Source: Panaeolus papilionaceus
Taxonomy: Eukaryota; Basidiomycota; Agaricomycetes; Agaricales
Direction of reading: 5' to 3'
Length of the DNA stretch: 64,000 nucleotides
Assembly (NCBI GenBank): GCA_015501605.1
Contig: JADNRZ010000040.1
Location: 124,001-188,000 of the forward strand
Made by a program: the position numbers and the translations under genes. The notes beneath the pieces were generated by a model. That model was not told the DNA's origin. It worked only from the letters and a program-made list of their open reading frames with translations, and searched no databases. This document shows positions 1-43,381 of this stretch, one piece after another (position 1 is the stretch's first letter; every line of letters starts with the position of its first letter).

Positions 1-189
1 AAGGAAACACGAATGAAAACAAAAGAAATTGAAAGGATTTAAGGAAAGTAAGCGCCGAAGCGTTTCAAAGAATCGAAAATAGAATGAAAAATAAACAAAA
101 TAAGCGAATAGGGAAGGCACCGTGCAGTCGGGGAATGAAGGAGGAACAGTAAAATACCGAAAATGCGAAATTCGGAGGGATGTGGGTTC

Positions 190-330
190 GGAGCTCATCA
201 ACGGCTCTTCACGGCTTTGCACGTCCTGGCACGGCACTTCACGTCTCTGCACGGTTTTCAGTATTTTCAGCACGGAAGTAGCACGTCACTCACGGTAGAG
301 TGCACGGTATGACACGGTTGATTGATACAC
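190..330. repeat. Left subterminal CACGG iteron array of the MULE
   Basis: About ten copies of CACGG or CACGT occur at 8-16 base spacing, mostly in one orientation. The same order of bases recurs in the miniature element at 42840-43030. A binding array for the element's own transposase is the simplest reading, but this is inference. Bases 1-189 are A-rich and show no gene. Confidence 0.6.
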
Positions 331-618
331 TTAGAAAGGTGACGCAGATTCAGCTGTTTGTTCCGAGAAAGAGTGTCTGCATCTCCAGAAGGTAAGCTCC
401 ATGCTCAGCCCTACCAATGGTAATATTGGCAATCAAATCTCATTTATTTCATCAAAGAGTCGGTTGCGGACCCTGCTGACTGCGCAGGGGCTCTTCTTGT
501 TTTGTTCTAATATCCCCTTTACCTCCTGTACCATTGATAGCACCATAGAGTAGAGTTTCATCAGTAGTCCGAATAATTTGAATATATTATTTTTTATTTT
601 AGTGTTGGGGTACAGAAT

Positions 619-3157
619 ATGTATAAAAGCTGCTCGAAGATGACCACTAACAAGACCAAGATACCCTCTGCTCCCTCATCCAACTTGATACGAGATTCGA
701 CGCCCCCCCCCCCCCCCCCGCCCCCCCCGCCCCCAGCGCGAAAGAGCCAAGCAGCTTCCATTGCTGACTATACCCATGGTTTGTACATTGCCCTCCCAGA
801 CGCTACTGTGTTATCTAACGGATATCATTACCACAGGACTTTATCCATCATATCTTGAGCTATTTTGGCCGTCCTTCGAAACATGAGGAATTCAACAGGC
901 CTGCGGATTCGAGCACTATCAAGCGCCTGGTTCCTGTATACTCTGAATCAGGCGTGTCACATACTTGATAGAGTCTTGTTGAATTTATCTAATGGGGTGA
1001 ATATAACAGGAGACATCATTCGATATGTTGAACAAGCTCACTCATGGTCCACCCCACATCATACCATGAAACCTGCAGCTGGTATGTACAACTCTTCAAA
1101 TGACCTTTCATGTTCTAATCACTATTCAAACGATACAGCCTACCGTGATGACCGACACAATGGTCAACCAATACCAAACCATCGGGATCTACAGGATACC
1201 TTCTACCGTCGTGACACTCATGGTCAATTTGTTCCCATTTCCAATGAAACCAGAGCAACATCGTCTTGTATCAATGATAACACCACCAACTCTGGCACTC
1301 CAGTCGGCTCTTCGACTCCGGATTGGGATGGATGGCCTGATGGTTACTTCACTCGAAACTTCACACAGGACGAGTTTAATGAAACAGGCAAGCTTCGAAC
1401 ACATTGGGCTATGTTTGTGAATGGAGGTGACCGCAAAGGACAAACCAGTTCGAGCACCTGGGAAGGAGGGAAGAAGGCTACACGCCGTTGCCTCGGAGTC
1501 ATCGAGTGTGATGATCCAGTCTGCAAGGTACTCATTCGTCCATACACCAAAGGGCACCAACAGCAACTTCAGGAGAAATGTAAATGTGGTGGGACCCTTG
1601 AACTCAGATCCTGCAATGTTGTCTCTGTTTTACATACCTGGGCTGGTGGGGTTCACTACTCCAATGGTGGCTATCATTTACATCGTCGTCCAACACACAT
1701 TCTCCATCTTCTGCCAGACCAGGAAAATCGATTTCAGGAGCTTGTCCGTTCTCATCCCAAATCAGGTCCGCTTCAGCTCGTTGTTGGTGTCCCTGGTCTA
1801 CATGGTCCTGGAAAGTCAGCAGCAGATATATCTCGCGTGTTTCTAAATGCTGCTCGGGTTAGCAAGGAACGCCAAAAGGTTACCAACGAGATCGGACCGA
1901 GTGCGGATGGCTTTATTGCCTCATTCTCTCGCTTCGAGGACGAGCACCCGGGATTCGTCATCAACTCTGTTATTGGGAAGGTTACAGTCATTTCTGTACA
2001 GACAGAATTCATGCGCAGTCAGCTGGTTAAAGACTCCACCCTCAATGGTCCTATCAATGGCATGGTAAACGATGCAGCGCATGGCTGGTGGAGGGAGTCT
2101 AACTCTCTCCTCATGGTTACATCAACATACTGTCCGCAGCTTCATTGCTGGGTTCCAAGTGTGATGTCATACACCAATGGGGCTAGTACAGAACACTTTA
2201 CACAACACTTTCAGGCAGTATTCCAAAGTATTTCACTCGAGGTAAAGAAGCGGAAGCGAAAGCTGACAGATGCCGACTTTGCAGGGGTGAGTAACATTTC
2301 AACATTCAATACTTTCTTCTTTAAAATTTAATCCTCAATTTTACTATCCAGGTTATGGATTTTAGTCAAGCCGAGCATGCAGGGTTTGTGTCTGCATTCA
2401 TCATGTTCTGGTCAACAAATCCGGAGGACACCCGTACCCGACAGGAGCTCCAGATTGCCGCTGAGCGCCTACTGAAGGGTTGTCGGGAGCATTTCCGCGC
2501 CCAAGTCTCACGTGTTGCCTGTATTACTGGTGTCATTCCTCCATCTGAGAAGGAGGGCTTTACCAAGCGCGCTCTGGCACTGTTAGACGCACCAACTTCT
2601 GCTCTTTTCCTATCACATGCCTCTCAGCTTATTGATGACTTTCCCAAAATCAAATCCTGGATAGATTGGTGGATGCGACCATCAGTAGCGTCAATGCTCT
2701 TTGAGTCTGAGAGGAAAATGGATGTTGAGCTGTGGGACTCGTTACCTGCATCCACCAATGCTGAAGAGTCGATGCATTGGAAGCTCTACAGTGCATGCGG
2801 GCGCAATCATGCCTTTCTCGAAGGAATGTATAGCTTGCATGCAGTTGCTGTGTATTATGAACGGCTCTTCCTTGCAGCATTGGGTATGTTAATTTCCCTC
2901 GTTTCTCAAGCATTATTAATCATGGTTGTATTTGGATAGAAGGAGCTCCAATTCGTTATGGAGACGCAGAGCCATGGAAGGTCATAGCAGCGCACATAGG
3001 TCGAACAAAGAAGTCACGAGCGCCAGATCCAGCGGAGGGAAAGAAGAGAAAGAGAAATGATGGTCGTCCGCCCGATACAGCCAAGGAGCTCCTTCAAGTC
3101 AAGAAGCCAAGGATCAATAGCACCAAAAGGTCAAACACATCGAAAGTTGAACCAGTT
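619..3157 (+). pseudogene. MULE transposase, N-terminal part: GCM-like zinc domain plus DDE domain
   Basis: The start is ATG at 619 or the in-frame ATG at 640. The first exons, with a proline run coded by a C tract at 703-733, are not resolved: an in-frame TGA at 856-858 needs an intron or marks decay. The main exon runs to 2286 (GTGAGT donor) and resumes at 2352. It encodes a GCM-like zinc domain at about 1480-1710, with Cys pairs, a CKCGG knuckle and the string RRPTHILHL. The DDE domain follows: first Asp in NDAAHGWW (GAT 2071-2073), second Asp in VMDFSQAEHAGF (GAT 2358-2360), a C-x2-HF motif, and Glu in STNAEESMHWKLY (about 2763-2768). This D-D-C/H-E order is that of Mutator-like transposases and agrees with the 9-bp duplications. 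After an intron near 2887-2940 a lysine-rich linker (GKKRKRN, KKPRIN) looks like a nuclear signal. A splice near 3157 to 3213 joins it to the peptidase domain. The gene is broken downstream by two insertions. Confidence 0.8.
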
Positions 3158-3212
3158 GAGTAATCAATTATTTTCCTGCTGTCTATCTGTTTCTGACTGT
3201 TAAATTGTGTAG

Positions 3213-4098
3213 AAAAAGCTTTCGAGTCCAACATTAATTTCACATCCACCACTTTACCCCTGGAACCAGAATTCGTGCTGGCTTGATAGTTCACTCCAGC
3301 TCCTTTATATTTGTCTCTCTAAGGACTGGCTTGTGGTTGACACCATAATGGATGGGCTTTCCAAGGATTCGGCGATCAAGCTTGTCTTAGAACACTTCAA
3401 GTACCGCCTGCATCTCAATTTGACAGATAGGTCAGGCGCCTACAGCATGGAGCAAGATCGAAACAAGATTCGAACACTGTTAAGAAAGCGAAAGGTCATA
3501 AGCACCATTGGGGAACATGAACCTTTATTGGTGCGCTTTTTTTTAGTACTAACCCGCACGCGCACTAAAATCAGCTTATCGTCAGTCATGGTTTTATCAA
3601 CTACTTCGTCTGGAGGATAAGCCTTCCACGTTTCGATCAATTGCCGCATTCGAAATCCACTCTATCAATATCCACACTTGTTCGGGCACACCGCCTACAG
3701 GTGGTACTCATGTCCAGATATCACGACAGCAGTATCGTGGTCGTGTTCATCAACTCACTCGCGAAGACTACACAATCTTCTCTGGCGATTTTGATCTTTA
3801 TTTCAACAACTTGCTTTCACTTGAACGTCAACCGACTGCACACTCTACATGCTGGCGGGTCAAGGACGGAGTCTCACTTTGCCCAGGGAAGCACACAAGC
3901 ACCGGGAAACTGGTACTTTCCATGCCTCTCATTTACACCTTCGATATTGCACTCGATGACGACGACAACCCCCCTTCATGGAATTTCCCAGAGATCTTGA
4001 ACCTCACTCAGGACAATCCAGATCTTGTGTATGAGCTTCTGGGCCTTGGATTCATCAACGATGCACACAACCACTTTATTGCGCGATATGTTTCCGAC
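3213..4098 (+). pseudogene. MULE transposase, middle part: USP-like cysteine peptidase, N half
   Basis: The exon 3213-3530 contains YPWNQNSCWLDSSLQLLY, the shape of the catalytic Cys box of ubiquitin-specific peptidases (Cys codon 3276-3278). An intron 3531-3585 follows, then an exon from 3586 that stays open to the insertion at 4098. It holds a CW..KDG..LCPGK segment and the beginning of the His box, YELLGLGFINDAHNHFIARY (His near 4072-4074). Reading resumes at 5263 with the acidic or Asn position in LTYND and with PYQVFYRL, which matches the closing strand of that fold. The Zn-binding CxxC pairs of many USPs are not seen. Peptidase activity is inferred. ULP1-like peptidases are known as partners of some plant MULEs, but the Cys box here looks more like USP. 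Confidence 0.6.
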
Positions 4099-5262
4099 GG
4101 GCACGGGAAAAAAGCCGTGCAGAGCCGTGCGCGACCGTGCAGTACCGTGCAGAGCCGTGTGGGGTCATCCTCGACCGTGCAACGACCGTGCGTCTACCGT
4201 GCACCGACACCAATTGGGCGTCGAAGTTCAGTGCACATCCCTATATGTACAGTGTACGATGGCTAATGTCAGGATAGTACCTCTCTGAGAATAAATTGGT
4301 CTAAATAGCATTGTTTTGACCCCGTCCGACATTCGTGATATACGGTATTCCTAGAAAATAACCCTCTTCGCAAGGCTAGTTTACGTCAAATATATATGGT
4401 CTGCGGTGTGTCAATGGTAAAACTACTCTAAAAATTGGCAGTTAAATGTCTAAGTGCGACCCAGATACACGATCACTTGCACTCGTGAGTGCATAGTTAG
4501 TTACTGTAACTAATGGCAAGACATAAATCTCTCATGGTACTTGAAGTCAGCTCAAAATGAAGTGTAATATTGAGTACTATCAATTACCATTGATTATGAC
4601 GTGCATGTAGAGCCTTCATTTTTCTAATTGCCCCAATCATGGTAATTGAGACCATAGAGCGACCGTGCAGAGCCGTGCTCACTTCTCTGCCTGCCGTGCA
4701 AAGACGTGCAAAGACGTGCGTAGCCGTGCATAGCCGTGCATGACCGTGCAGGGCCGTGCGTCAGCCGTGCACCGACCGTGCGACTGCCATGCCAAGGAGA
4801 GGTCAGCCGTGCGCCTACCGTGCAGATGGGCAATGATTTGAAGTGGAAATCTTTTGGGTCTCAGAATGCTTACTAGTTAACCTAGTGGATTGAATTCAAT
4901 GTGTACAGTCGATTTAGAGAGCAACTTTATGTCCCTACTGCTCATCACTGATAGTCACACTCATGATTAATGTACCACAAGCTAAGGTTCTGGGATAAGC
5001 TATAGAGATGTGAGAGTCCAATGCTGTGTTTCCGTTGATATTGATACTTGTGTTGAACACACTGGTGATACTGACAAAGATGCCATATGCTATCTCTATT
5101 CGGGAATCTTCAACGAACCTGAATACGAGAATAAGGTATTTAGTCCCTTGGGAAATCAGCCGTGCAGCCGTGCAGAGCCGTGCATGACCGTGCATTTAGC
5201 AGAATTGCACGGTAGACGCTGCACGGCCATGCACGGCTCTGCACGGCTTTTTTCTTTTGCCC
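4099..5262. mobile_element. Nested non-autonomous MULE element, AAAAAAGCC-end type
   Basis: The ends are GGGCACGGGAAAAAAGCC and its inverted counterpart ending in TTTTTTCTTTTGCCC. The flanks are gtttccgac (4090-4098) and gtttccgat (5263-5271), a 9-bp duplication with one change. The 1164-bp element has CCGTGC arrays near both ends (about 4111-4200 and 5155-5250) and a further array at 4660-4825. No transposase sequence is recognised in it. It lies inside the peptidase exon of the large transposase, and the reading frame continues exactly across the duplication. Confidence 0.85.
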
Positions 5263-6578
5263 GTTTCCGATGATGGACGAATTCTCACTTACAACGACAC
5301 TGCCAATGGTTCCGCTCCTACTGAGGAGTATGGCGCCACAATTGAAACACATCTGGCTGGCGAAAACACCCACATCCCAGCAGGGTTTGTGCCTTATCAA
5401 GTCTTTTATCGCCTCCGTGGTGGCCTCGATGCCCAATCTTCCTACTTCAACCTTCGAAGCGATCTAATTTCACGGAAATTCAACCTCGGCATTGCAGCTA
5501 ACGGGTTAAGCGCTCCCTGTTCCATCACGTACATCGATCCTACATTTATCCCGATGAAGGTGAAGGATCGTACCTGGATTTATAATCCATTCAAGGCCAA
5601 TACTTTGGAGTATATCACTAAGGGTGCTCGTGGTCGTCGTCCTCCTTCGAAATTGTCTATCAGCTCCGTCACTAGCGATAGTCCAGAGTCGGAGGAAGAG
5701 GTTCAATATAATCTCAACTCAGCAGCTTGTTCTCGCAGTGGGAGTCCAACTGGCGTCATGGACTTTCCAAATTCGTCGAATTCCCCTCAACGTCTAGGCA
5801 GCATTGCACCCTCTGATACCTCTCTCCCTTTATCCTCGTTTTCTCTGGACTGCCTGTGCGGGGTGCACGGCGACGGAAACCTTCACTACAACCCAATGGT
5901 TAACGGTCCTGCAATACAGTGTGACGACTGCAAAGGTTGGTCGCATATCGCATGCCAGCGCAACGGTCGAGCTAGCAATTTGAGCGCTAAGGAGTCCTTC
6001 ATTTGCGATAACTGCGATCCAACACACATCCTTCCCAAGCGCCGGGCATCGGAGAGAAAGTAGGTTCTCAACTCTGGAATGTGTTTATATCCTCCTCCTC
6101 ACCTGATTAATCTCGCAGAAAGATCGAAGCTCGTACAGGTTACAAGGAACCGTTGACTTTGAGATTAAGGTACTATTTTATTTGAATATTCGACTTTTGT
6201 GTACGAATAACCGATTAACAGGTCCGGGAGAGGCGCTTTAGCACGTGTTGGCATCTACTTTTATCCTGTGCGACTGATCCAGATGGTGGGTGATGGTTGG
6301 AACGTTCGATGGTGGAGAGGAAACGAGTACAGTTCAAGTGTACCAGGTCCTCCTGTTGAAACCTCGTTTGTTTCTCTCACTGACCTGCACGATTCACTAT
6401 GGAGGAATCGTTTTGAGAGACGACAAATTCGGGTAAGTTTACCTCTGATTCTATTCCATTTTCCTCGAATCAAGCTGATGAAATCATATCCGCTACATAT
6501 GTAGCTCGGAAAGTGGAAACATGCATGTGAAGTCCCAACATCTGAAGACATCCTTTCCGATCCAACTAGCGTCCCCTA
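5263..6578 (+). pseudogene. MULE transposase: peptidase C half, PHD finger and barrel-like segment
   Basis: The frame open at 4098 resumes here with DDGRILTYND and runs through PYQVFYRLRGG, completing the USP-like fold. A Ser/Pro-rich linker follows. A C4HC3-type PHD finger lies at about 5851-6014: CLCG, then CDDCKGWSHIAC with the Trp two residues before the His, and a closing CDNC. PHD fingers usually read histone tails. Short introns follow at about 6060-6118 and 6169-6221. The next exon encodes YFYPVRLIQMVGDGWNVRWW, which resembles a small chromatin-type barrel, though no family is assigned. An intron near 6433-6504 leads to LGKWKHAC. The exon stops at a second nested element at 6579 and continues in frame at 7613. 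Confidence 0.65.
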
Positions 6579-7612
6579 GGGCATAGGTAAAACGCCGTGC
6601 AAAGCCGGGATCTGCCGTGCGCGACCGTGCATTACCGTGCAAGGTCATCGTAAAGCCGTGCAAAGCCGTGCGGAACCGTGAGCGAGCCGTGCATAATCGT
6701 ACATGTACCGTGCATGTACCATGAGTGTGCCGTGCAGCGTACCGGGAGTGTGCCGTGCAACGCCCCGCGCATGGCTGTTGATGTGGTCGTGGGGTTATCT
6801 GACTGAAAAGGTGAGCAGTGGTGAAGGTGTGACTGAGGGATAAGCTGGTGCAATGGAAAGGCAAGGGGCACCGGGCATTTATTCTTTGTAAAATAGGTAC
6901 ATAATATATGTAAAACTATGTAAAATCATGGAAATAGAAACAACGCGTGAACGAAGCGCTGTGGCGAATAGAAATGCATGGGAAAATATCGAAAATCCGA
7001 AAAATAAGGGGATATCGATGCAGCACTCATCAGCGTGTGTGGAATTGAAGAGGTACTCAGGGATCGGTGACTCTTTGATGAAATAAATATGATTTGATTG
7101 TCTGATATTGTCATTTGTAGGGCTGAGCATGGGGCTTACCTTCTGAAATGTATGATTGATGAAAGATAATTGTGATACAGTGCTACTGAGGATTCAGACA
7201 CTCTTCGAAGGAACAAACAGATGGAACTATCTTACCTTTTTAAGTGTATCAATCAACCGTGTCGTACCGTGCAGCTTAACGTGAGAGACGTGCCACTGCC
7301 GTGCTGAAAACACCTAAAACCGTGCAGAGACGTGAAGAGCCATGCAAGGACGTGCAAAGCCGTGCAAAGCCGTGTCCCTGCCGTGGTCAACCGTGATGAG
7401 CCGTGTCCCTACCGTGTCGAAGACATACAGAGACGTGGAAAGCTCTAAAAAATAGTCGCTCTAATTGTATGCTACCTATTGATTCACTACCGTGCTACTG
7501 TGTGCTCAAGTGAAGAGCTGTTCGAAGCTGTGCAAAGCCATGAAATTCGCTGTGGGACACAGTAGTGAGTTCACGGCAGCGCACGGCTTTGCACGGCGTT
7601 TTCTAGTTGCCC
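6579..7612 (-). mobile_element. Nested miniature MULE, AAAACGCC-end type, copy 1
   Basis: The ends are GGGCATAGGTAAAACGCC at 6579 and GGCGTTTTCTAGTTGCCC at 7612, an imperfect inverted pair. The flanks cgtccccta (6570-6578 and 7613-7621) are identical. The 1034-bp element has CCGTGC iterons at 6596-6770 and 7255-7435 and no coding sequence. It shares long stretches with the copy at 29189 (for example around 6900-7260) and is inverted relative to the copy at 42604. It splits an exon of the large transposase, whose frame is restored exactly if element and one duplication are ignored. Confidence 0.9.
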
Positions 7613-8383
7613 CGTCCCCTACACAGCACTGACTCACGAAATCCTCTCTCCTTTCAAAGACGTTCTGATGAAGCTAACACTGAATAGTGCATCAATCGAC
7701 AGCAGTGACATTCCAGCAAAGGCATGGCTCGAATCAAACAATCTGTCACTCAAAGATTCTCCCGTTCCCTTCGTTGGGCATCTCTCCCTAGTAGAGAGGG
7801 CGCAAATTTCGAATTGGTTTGATCAGCATATCACTGCCGGAGATCCCAAATTACGCCTCTCATGGCTAGCTCGGCTACCAATCGCTCATGCCTTTACAAT
7901 TTACATCGCTCACTCCCTTCAACCTTCTGGTTCAACTCCAGTCTCGCAGAATGAACATAGTACAGAACTCATCAACGAGGCATGGGAGATCCAAATGTCA
8001 GGTATGCCATTGAGGTCGATTGATATTGATGTCGATCGAACCTGTCTTCACCGGCTTGAGGAAGATATGTTTGAGGTGTCGTCCCGTGCGGAAATGGCTG
8101 GATACTATCAATGGGGTCTCGACGCTGGACCTCATCAAGACGATTGGGACCCGTATTTGGGCCTTCCTGATAGCTGGAATCTTGGTGATCATCAATTTGA
8201 CGAGGAATTGCTTCAGGTAAGTTGATCTGTTTCTTTGATCAGCTCAGACACCATACTTAACGAGTATTATAGAGGGGTCTACAGTACATCGAACCTACGC
8301 TGCGCATCGAGGAAGTTAAGATGGACCTTTCTGTTAAGCAGCATATCCCACCACGCAAGAACTCGAGAAAGCGGAAGCGGTGA
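7613..8383 (+). pseudogene. MULE transposase, C-terminal tail
   Basis: After the second nested element the open frame resumes and runs to a GTAAGT donor at 8217. An intron of 56 bases ends with TATAG at 8272. The last exon ends in PRKNSRKRKR followed by TGA at 8381-8383, a plausible nuclear signal at the C terminus. The region is mildly acidic and rich in Asp, His and Trp (for example HQDDWDPYLGL). No domain is recognised. The exact fit of frame and splice sites shows that the coding sequence was intact until the insertions. Confidence 0.65.
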
Positions 8384-8489
8384 TCTCATTCTTATTATAC
8401 TTGTAGTACTGGTAATGCATTTGATCTTTAATGTATCATGCGTAGTTTGAACCTCTGCAACTGGCGAGATAAATGGCTTACTTCCCTCT

Positions 8490-8709
8490 CTTCTCCTTCA
8501 CGGCTTTGCACGGCTTGTGCACGGTTCTTGCTGTCATTCCACTCACGGTTATGCACGGTACTTACACGGTACTTACACGGCACACACACGGTTATGCACG
8601 GCTCACTCACGGCTTAGCACGGCTTTGCACGGCTTTACGGGGTACTTACACGGTAATGCACGGTTTCGCACGGCAGATCCCTGCTTTGCACGGCGATTTA
8701 CCTATGCCC
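8490..8709. repeat. Right subterminal CACGG iteron array and MULE terminus
   Basis: Some eighteen CACGG units at short spacing run up to the terminus TTTGCACGGCGATTTACC ATGCCC-type end at 8709. It matches the ends of the miniature copies apart from one base. The repeat makes spurious open frames of Met-His-Gly-type peptides, which are not genes. Confidence 0.75.
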
Positions 8710-9006
8710 TCGAGGTTGCAGTGCCGTAGTTCTTGACCAGGATTTCCTGAGTTATAACCTCTTGTACTTCATAGGTAGTGACATCGCTGCCTTGTGAGGG
8801 ACTGATGGCCCTGTATGATACTGTGAAATCCTCTTGAAAGCTGACGGAGGGCAGGTCGGAAGGCATGGGCCCCGTGAAACTGACACCATAAAGAGTGACG
8901 ACGGCCGCACCTGGAAGCAGTTTAGTCGATGCCGCTAAGATTTATCTGAATACGTACATGCATGCATAGCGAGCACTGAGAGCCAGATGAACGCTTTGGT
9001 AATCAT
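8710..9006 (-). pseudogene. Secreted-protein gene cut by the MULE (5' part only)
   Basis: On the minus strand an ATG at 9006-9004 begins a signal-peptide-like run (MITKAFIWLSVLAMHAC). An intron (8957-8911, GTACGT...CTTCCAG) follows. The next exon reads AAVVTLYGVSFTG and continues with a beta-like Thr/Ser/Val-rich sequence until base 8710, where the MULE target duplication begins. A TATA-like box lies about 70 bases upstream. The family is not recognised. The remainder must lie beyond the left end of the transposon, outside the window. Confidence 0.6.
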
Positions 9007-29188: not shown

Positions 29189-30255
29189 GGGCATAGGTAA
29201 AACGCCGTGCAAAGCCGGGATCTGCCGTGCGCGACCGTGCATTACCGTGCAAGGTCATAGTAAAACCGTGCAAAGCCGTGCGGAACCGTGAGCCAGCCGT
29301 GCATAACCGTGCAGCGTACCGTGAGTGTGCCGTGCAACGCCCCATGCATGGCCGTTGATGTGATCGTGGAGTTATCTGAGTGAAAAGGTGAGCAGTGGTG
29401 AAGGTGTGACTGAGGGATAAATTGCTGGAATCGAAAGGCAAGGGAGTGACGCGCAGTACGAGTTAGTGGGGTTGGACTGTAATGTGAGCTGGGGGCAAAT
29501 ACAACAGTGAATACGACGAAAATGACAAATATATGCGCTGACGAAGGTGCGCACGGGCACCGGGCGACGGCGAAGACGAAATACGAAGATGAAACGAGAA
29601 ATATGGGGTGGAAAGAGGCATTTATTCTTTGTAAAATGGGTACTTAATATATGTAAAACTATGTAAAATCATGGAAATAGAAAGAAAACACTCGAAAATA
29701 CGAGAACCAAGAACACGCAACGCGTGAACTTGAACGAAGAGCTGTATACGAATAGAAATGCATGGGAAAATATCGAAAATCCGAAAAATCAGGGGATATC
29801 GATGAAAGGTAATTGTGATACAGTGCCACTGAGGATTCGGACACTCTTCGAAGGAACAAACAGATGGAACTATCTTACCTTTCTAAGTGTATCAATCAAC
29901 CGTGTCGTACCGTGCAGCTTAGCGTGAGAGACGTGCCACTGCCGTGCTGAAAACACCTAAAACCGTGCAGAGACGTGAAGAGCCATGCAAGGACGTGCAA
30001 AGCCGTGCAAAGCCGTGTCCCTGCCGTGGTCAACCGTGAAAAGCCGTGTCCCTACCGTGTCTAAGACATACAGACACGCGGAAAGCTGTGAAAAATAGTC
30101 ACTCTAATAGTATGCTACGTATTGATTCACTGCCGTGCTACTGTGTGCTCAAGTGAAGAGCCGTTCGAAGCCATGAAATTCGCTGTGGGACACAGTAGTG
30201 AGTTCACAGCAGCGCACGGCAGCGCACGGCTTTGCACGGCGTTTTCTAGTTGCCC
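29189..30255 (-). mobile_element. Miniature MULE, AAAACGCC-end type, copy 2
   Basis: Ends GGGCATAGGTAAAACGCC and GGCGTTTTCTAGTTGCCC. The duplication catcgagat is identical at 29180-29188 and 30256-30264. At 1067 bp it closely resembles the copy at 6579, with the same iteron order near both ends and the same A-rich middle. It has no coding sequence. Confidence 0.9.
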
Positions 30256-42603: not shown

Positions 42604-43381
42604 GGGCAACTAGAAAACGCCGTGCAAAACCGTGCGCTGCGGTGCGCTGCCGTGAACGCACTACTGTGTCACACAGCGAATTTCATGGCTTTGCACGGCT
42701 TTGAACGGCTCTTCACTTGAGCACGCAGTAGCACGGTAGTGAATCAATAGGCAGCATACTATTATAGCGACTATTTTTCACAGTTTTCCACGTCTCTGTA
42801 TGTCTTAGACACGGTAGGGACACGGCTCATCACGGTTGACCACGGCAGGGACACGGCTTTGCAAGGCGTTTCACGTCCTTGCATGGCTCTTCACGTCTCT
42901 GCACGGTTTTAGGTGTTTTCAGCACGGCAGTGGCACGTCTCTCACGCTAAGCTGCACGGTACGACACGGTTGATTAATACACTTAGAAAGGTAAGATAGT
43001 TCCATCTGTTTGTTCCTTCGAAGAGTGTTTACATCCTCAGTAGCACTGTATCTCAATTATCTTTCATTTACATATATTATGTGCCTATTTTACAAAGAAT
43101 AAATGCCTTTTCCACGCCATATTTCGTGTTTCTTCTTCATATTTCGTCTTCGTCGTCGCCCGGTGCTCGTGCGCACCTTCGTCAGCGCATATATTTGTCG
43201 TTTTTGTCGTATTCACTGTTGTATTTGCCCCCAGCTCACATTATTATGCACGGTTATGCACGGTTATGCACGGCTCGCTCACGGTTCCGCACGGCTTTGC
43301 ACGGTTTTACTATGTCCTTGCACGGTAATGCACGGTCGCGCACGGCAGATCCCGGCTTTGCACGGCGTTTTACCTATGCCC
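42604..43381 (+). mobile_element. Miniature MULE, AAAACGCC-end type, copy 3
   Basis: Ends GGGCAACTAGAAAACGCC and GGCGTTTTACCTATGCCC. The duplication gtcgtcata is perfect at 42595-42603 and 43382-43390. At 778 bp it is shorter than the copies at 6579 and 29189 and inverted relative to them. Its left 420 bases hold the same iteron order as 190-400 of the large element. Iterons at the right end lie at 43245-43365. Confidence 0.9.

Follow-up and report, generated by a model that had tools for sequence, protein, structure and literature searches.

Peptidases of the ubiquitin and SUMO systems recur in unrelated transposons, as Ulp1, OTU and VTD domains and, in the element described here, as a domain with the predicted fold of the ubiquitin-specific peptidases (USPs). 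Ginger1 elements encode Ulp1 or OTU peptidases, Ginger1-9_HM combines Ulp1 with a PHD finger, and Ulp1 is also found in Mutator elements (PMC2836005). In Trichomonas vaginalis a protein, XP_001314237.1, combines transposase_11 with Peptidase C19 (PMC2836005), so a transposase joined to a USP domain has a precedent. Deubiquitinases of the VTD type, and OTU domains, have been described in Helitrons by Erven and colleagues (PMC9741609). The locus analysed here lies in a stretch of 64,000 nucleotides from Panaeolus papilionaceus (assembly GCA_015501605.1, contig JADNRZ010000040.1, positions 124,001 to 188,000, forward strand), called the window below. It holds part of a DNA transposon that is, on balance, probably of the autonomous type and a member of the Mutator/IS256 group, encoding in a single protein a GCM-type zinc domain, a DDE transposase core, a USP-fold peptidase, a PHD finger, a barrel-like segment and a C-terminal domain, with the peptidase acting as an isopeptidase in cis. 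The element is bounded, its frame is fused and its active sites are conserved; the GCM, DDE and peptidase folds are those predicted in models of homologues.

With the Mutator-like elements (MULEs) and the IS256 group the locus shares an ISCth4-like predicted DDE fold, a CxxH motif, 9-bp target site duplications (TSDs) and an N-terminal zinc domain. It differs from MULEs in giving no Pfam MULE match, in having a GCM domain in place of FLYWCH or SWIM, and in its added USP-fold and PHD domains. The second aspartate and the glutamate are 136 residues apart, as in Muta1 (D283-E419), whereas the gap between the two aspartates is 74 residues here and 69 in Muta1 (PMC5225508). Rehavkus also has a 9-bp TSD, a PHD finger in its transposase and a minisatellite near the 3' end, but it is listed from arthropods and annelids, and the passages compared mention neither a GCM nor a USP-fold domain (PMC6446971). 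Ulp1-bearing Mutator elements and Ginger1 resemble our element in the fusion of a transposase to a ubiquitin or SUMO peptidase, once with a PHD finger; Ulp1 and OTU are, however, other peptidase folds, and the Ginger core is integrase-like. In the Trichomonas protein a C19 (USP) domain is likewise joined to a transposase, but of another type and in a protist, and a single protein is named, with no mention of a GCM or PHD domain. The VTD- and OTU-bearing Helitrons also encode deubiquitinases, from other peptidase families and in rolling-circle elements. USPs (C19) and USPL1 (C98) share with our peptidase the predicted fold and the Cys-His-Asp/Asn order, but no significant sequence-profile match.

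A partial check of the literature, by titles and the beginnings of abstracts and without Repbase or most subscription papers, found no description of a Mutator/IS256 transposase fused to GCM, USP-fold and PHD domains. With a transposase, an isopeptidase and a histone reader in one polypeptide, and within a single class of hosts, the reason why such peptidases recur in transposons becomes testable. It is also suggested that many entries in mushroom genomes labelled 'hypothetical', 'PHD-type' or 'GCM domain-containing' are transposon proteins.

Ends and gene structure of the element

The whole element spans positions 122822-132709 of contig C35, which holds the window, or 9,888 bp with both nested inserts counted. 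Its left terminal inverted repeat (TIR) begins with GGGCAACTAGAAAACGCC at C35:122822, 1,178 bp upstream of the window start, the right TIR ends with ...TTACCTATGCCC at window position 8709, and the 9-bp TSD TCGAGGTTG flanks the element on both sides. A preliminary description of this DNA, made from the sequence alone, had given the unit as 619..8383, which is too short, as judged by the TIRs and the TSD. Mutator/IS256 elements have TIRs and TSDs of 8-11 bp; the duplication is 9 bp here and in all 17 of the relatives, among 20 fetched, whose two ends could be recognised. The features are listed below, with exons modelled as stop-free frames read from the window sequence.

1..8709, + strand: part of the transposon within the window, by TIRs and flanking TSD
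837..956, + strand: probable first recognised coding exon, translated as DFIHHILSYFGRPSKHEEF...LVPVYSESG, which by eye is similar to the N terminus of P0002/P0003
1066..2286, + strand: exon from the first ATG, with the GCM-type zinc domain (about 1324-1700) and the first DDE part (first aspartate codon 2071-2073); the true 5' end is probably earlier
2352..2883, + strand: exon of the DDE core, with the second aspartate at 2358-2360, CxxH at 2481-2492 and the glutamate at 2766-2768
2940..3154, + strand: exon with a basic linker from DDE core to peptidase (exon model)
3213..3530, + strand: exon with the peptidase Cys box NSCWLD, Cys codon 3276-3278
3586..4098, + strand: exon with the peptidase His box, His codon 4072-4074, interrupted by insert 1
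4099..5262, strand not applicable: insert 1, an element of 1,164 bp with ends GGGCAC.../...TTTTGCCC; TSD 4090-4098 / 5263-5271 with one mismatch
5263..6059, + strand: exon with the peptidase end (third triad position Asn, 5293-5295) and the PHD finger (5851-6015)
6119..6169, + strand: exon linking the PHD finger to the barrel-like segment (exon model)
6222..6432, + strand: exon of the barrel-like segment, conserved in homologues
6505..6578, + strand: exon fragment ending at insert 2
6579..7612, - strand: insert 2, a non-autonomous copy of the same family, 1,034 bp, inverted; TSD CGTCCCCTA at 6570-6578 / 7613-7621
7613..8216, + strand: exon of the conserved C-terminal domain, 84% identical to the C46 copy and conserved in homologues
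8273..8383, + strand: last exon and stop codon
8552..8709, + strand: right TIR with CACGG-type subterminal repeats
8710..8718, strand not applicable: right copy of the 9-bp TSD TCGAGGTTG

The peptidase exon lies directly 3' of a stop codon and has no in-frame ATG ahead of the catalytic Cys, both in the window and in a paralogous copy on contig C46, which speaks against a separate peptidase gene. In the window copy the intron between the transposase part and the peptidase exon is 58 bp and the same TIRs enclose both parts, and the same domain order is found in predicted proteins of several genera. The preliminary description had joined the DDE, peptidase, PHD and GCM parts across introns and two nested insertions, and the stop-free exons, the TIR-bounded element and many homologues bear this out; intact DDE and peptidase genes standing apart, which it had named as the contrary case, were not seen. 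The C46 paralogue aligns over both insertion sites and carries neither insert. Its GCM domain is absent, and one of its PHD cysteines has been lost. Its missing 5' part, GCM included, corresponds to about 6260 to 7196 of L009, where repeated sequence continues up to the contig end.

No start codon of the gene was found, including near the upstream exon at 837-956. A proline-rich open reading frame (ORF) at 619 was rejected as the gene start; no counterpart of it was seen in homologues. Upstream of the gene, a C-rich run at 701-734 encodes a row of prolines in a frame that lacks support. In the window copy there is also a stop codon at the junction with insert 2. The database protein P0001 of P. 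papilionaceus is 96% identical to the window gene, and its published model leaves out the segment that contains the active-site Cys as well as some of the third box, which partly explains the missing peptidase annotation. The other named homologues come from species that we take to be Agaricomycetes too; intact ones include P0003 of Panaeolus cyanescens and P0020 of Mycena belliarum.

Domains and their conservation

We collected 138 homologues and made motif counts on the 85 with 850-1800 amino acids (aa), dropping 51 that were shorter and 2 that were longer. Pfam scans covered 66 homologues in all, namely 24 members (E up to 1) and 34 members (E up to 5) besides the scan with P0026. In predicted models of homologues the RNase H-like DDE core was most like Mutator-group transposases, with ISCth4 (IS256 family) as the best match. 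The DDE residues are conserved in 67 of the 69 homologues with filled columns (67/85 overall) and CxxH in 77/85. A zinc-binding GCM fold is supported by a profile and by the predicted fold of homologues, with the zinc ligands conserved; Pfam GCM and C98 searches of the genome gave no match, but their controls were likewise unmatched, so they are uninformative.

Models of homologues predict a USP fold for the peptidase, with Cys, His and Asp/Asn in the USP order; the preliminary description had named a fold without the active site as a case against itself, and the models do not present one. The triad is conserved in 60 of 61 readable homologues. The range aligned to USP7 (9iju_A) places the Cys on residue 223 if the alignment is ungapped, and this residue is presumably the nucleophile of USP7.

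In the raw window exons Pfam recognised the PHD finger (E 8.8e-5), and beyond it only matches at E 0.05 or worse, which we took as chance. PF00628 was found in 18/24 homologues (E up to 1) and in 21/34 (E up to 5). All eight C4HC3 zinc ligands are present in the window, and at least seven are kept in 52/85 homologues. The barrel-like segment is conserved in homologues; its profile had no match among PDB sequences. The preliminary description did not mention the conserved C-terminal domain, which measures about 200 aa.

Possible roles of the peptidase and the PHD finger

We suggest that the element moves by cut and paste. The GCM zinc domain would bind the terminal repeats, the DDE core would cut and join DNA, giving the 9-bp duplications, and the PHD finger would read histone H3 tails, possibly K4-methylated, and tether the protein to nucleosomes or chromatin. 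Acting in cis, the isopeptidase would free the transposase, its complex or the bound chromatin of ubiquitin or SUMO, which would keep the host from destroying or silencing the transpososome. We think such self-protection the most likely role, with an action on chromatin as its main alternative. The fusion hints that the transposon manipulates the host protein-tagging system on moving; SUMO may be what the peptidase cleaves, or its target may be the transposase. Selection appears to have kept the peptidase about as strictly as the transposase: between the window and C46 copies dN/dS is 0.15 and 0.03 for the start and end of the DDE part, 0.035 and 0.09 for the peptidase, 0.155 for the peptidase end with the PHD finger, 0.12 for the barrel-like segment and 0.07 for the C-terminal domain, values that are rough because dS, at 1.3-2.4, is near saturation.

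That saturation is one of several points that weigh against our reading, in which cis action and substrate are guesses. Pfam MULE (PF10551) had no match in the window exons, in the homologues scanned or in the genome (its control gave a match in 3/14 genomes), and for this reason we term the element Mutator/IS256-related and not a proven MULE subfamily. Pfam UCH (PF00443) likewise had no match in the window exons or the homologues scanned. The preliminary interpretation of a MULE transposase with USP-like, PHD and GCM domains holds as a fusion, by predicted folds, active sites and homologues; of the four profiles that it had proposed for searches, PHD was recovered in the window exons and GCM by a homologue profile, and MULE and UCH were not. 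A peptidase-only profile of 8 sequences found no USP among PDB sequences, its 9 matches up to E 10 (argonautes, the best at E 0.16, disintegrins and an ice-binding protein) being taken as chance. When ORFs from 30 loci of this genome that bear USPs were searched with the peptidase profile, no match was significant; the sole one (E 0.37) covered a Cys-box-like stretch only. The modelled Cys box is of low confidence (pLDDT about 62, against a peptidase mean of about 82; pTM 0.45). Neither long copy found in the genome is whole, the window copy being interrupted and the C46 copy defective. The DDE residues and the peptidase triad occur together in only 46/85 homologues; all five tested features are kept in 22/85, and many others are gapped at these columns. 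Lastly, the 51 homologues below 850 aa mostly have the DDE part, and the Cys box was found by pattern in only 3 of them; many carry the label 'partial', and this group may consist of truncated gene models or of elements without a peptidase.

A less likely alternative, which we hold tentatively, is that the peptidase belongs with the deSUMOylases of the USPL1 (C98) type and not with the deubiquitinases, so that fungal elements would have converged on the role of Ulp1 in plant Mutator elements. The Cys box reads N-S-C-W-L-D, with Trp next after Cys in 51 of the 62 homologues that have a letter there, and this Trp we take to be what sets USPL1 apart from ordinary USPs. A single peptidase model, Peptidase_C98 (PF15499), came up when homologues were scanned with Pfam, as one weak match in P0026; its E of 0.066 is, however, not significant, and C98 appeared in none of the 24 or 34 other members. 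USPL1 is a USP-fold deSUMOylase (PMC10540217), but it is not among the 50 structural matches listed, which excludes nothing. A broader proposal, which we regard as rather doubtful, is that Mutator-type transposons of Agaricomycetes acquired a USP-fold isopeptidase by an independent capture. Next to an H3K4-methyl reader, this enzyme would have become a deubiquitinase or deSUMOylase that is mobile, directed at chromatin and needed for transposition, and the elements would have converged on the Ulp1 of plant Mutator elements through a different fold.

The preliminary description had suggested that the transposon edits ubiquitin marks or chromatin at donor or target sites. Less probable still is an idea of this kind in which the PHD finger would guide the transposase to active promoters, where the peptidase would strip ubiquitin from histones in the target chromatin. 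The PHD profile lies nearest, among PDB sequences, to the fingers of Bye1, SHPRH, MLL5, SET3 and PHF13, among others, several of which we assume to be H3K4me readers. Of the 66 homologues with a letter at the position that precedes the His, 49 have a Trp there, as H3K4me3 readers do. Many PHD fingers do not read H3K4me3, which counts against this idea. Chromatin-acting transposon genes, SET and TET/JBP, offer a precedent (PMC12730594), but self-protection is simpler. USP-fold pseudo-enzymes exist, Pan2 being one, and Pan2 is among the structural matches listed; the conserved triad nevertheless makes it very improbable that the domain is a non-catalytic relic, for example a scaffold for dimerisation or DNA binding. 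That annotation merely joined a transposase gene to an adjoining host peptidase gene is scarcely credible: the homologue support consists of predicted proteins, and the short models mostly have no Cys box, but against this stand the stop codon, the missing ATG, the 58-bp intron, the common TIRs and the domain order shared by predicted proteins of several genera.

Nested insertions, short relatives and remnants

Two elements, one of them clearly of its own family, have broken the window copy; each begins with GGGCA and is flanked by a 9-bp duplication. Inverted, insert 2 matches the host element over 159 bp at the right end (84%) and 125 bp at the left end (81%), so it seems to have arisen by deletion from a member of this family. 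The same ends are found on short non-autonomous copies, and searching with insert 2 gave at least 100 matching pieces. We fetched 20 copies, picked for the apparent presence of both ends, and recognised the ends in 17; all 17 have 9-bp duplications (16 perfect, one with a single mismatch), with a slight bias toward TSD matches, since in each copy the best ends were chosen from a small number of candidates. Left flanks paired with right flanks of other copies gave duplications in 0/272 cases, which makes chance untenable as the explanation. Across about 740 bases insert 2 is 98% identical to one of the copies, which points to recent activity. Two further non-autonomous copies of the family lie in the window, at 29189-30255 and 42604-43381, and the 9-bp duplications of both are perfect.

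Relatives of the C-terminal part, on contigs C26, C8 and C12, were considered as possible peptidase-free versions of the element and rejected, since only C-terminal parts match within the fetched stretches. L010 7779-9018 and L012 7241-8555 are diverged remnants matching only the PHD finger, barrel and C-terminal parts, L011 2492-2770 holds small pieces of these, and within the fetched stretches none of the three has a GCM, DDE or peptidase match. Near the L010 remnant an ORF (4895-5692) with an H-x-D-type motif looks by eye like a candidate JmjC-type dioxygenase.

Splice-like signals were seen at the element ends in one orientation, ATAG|GTAAAA at one end and TTTTCTAG| at the other (window 6579-7612 and loci L032-L051), with both exact strings in 16 of the 20 fetched copies. 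After landing in a gene, members of this family may be removed by splicing, as an intron.
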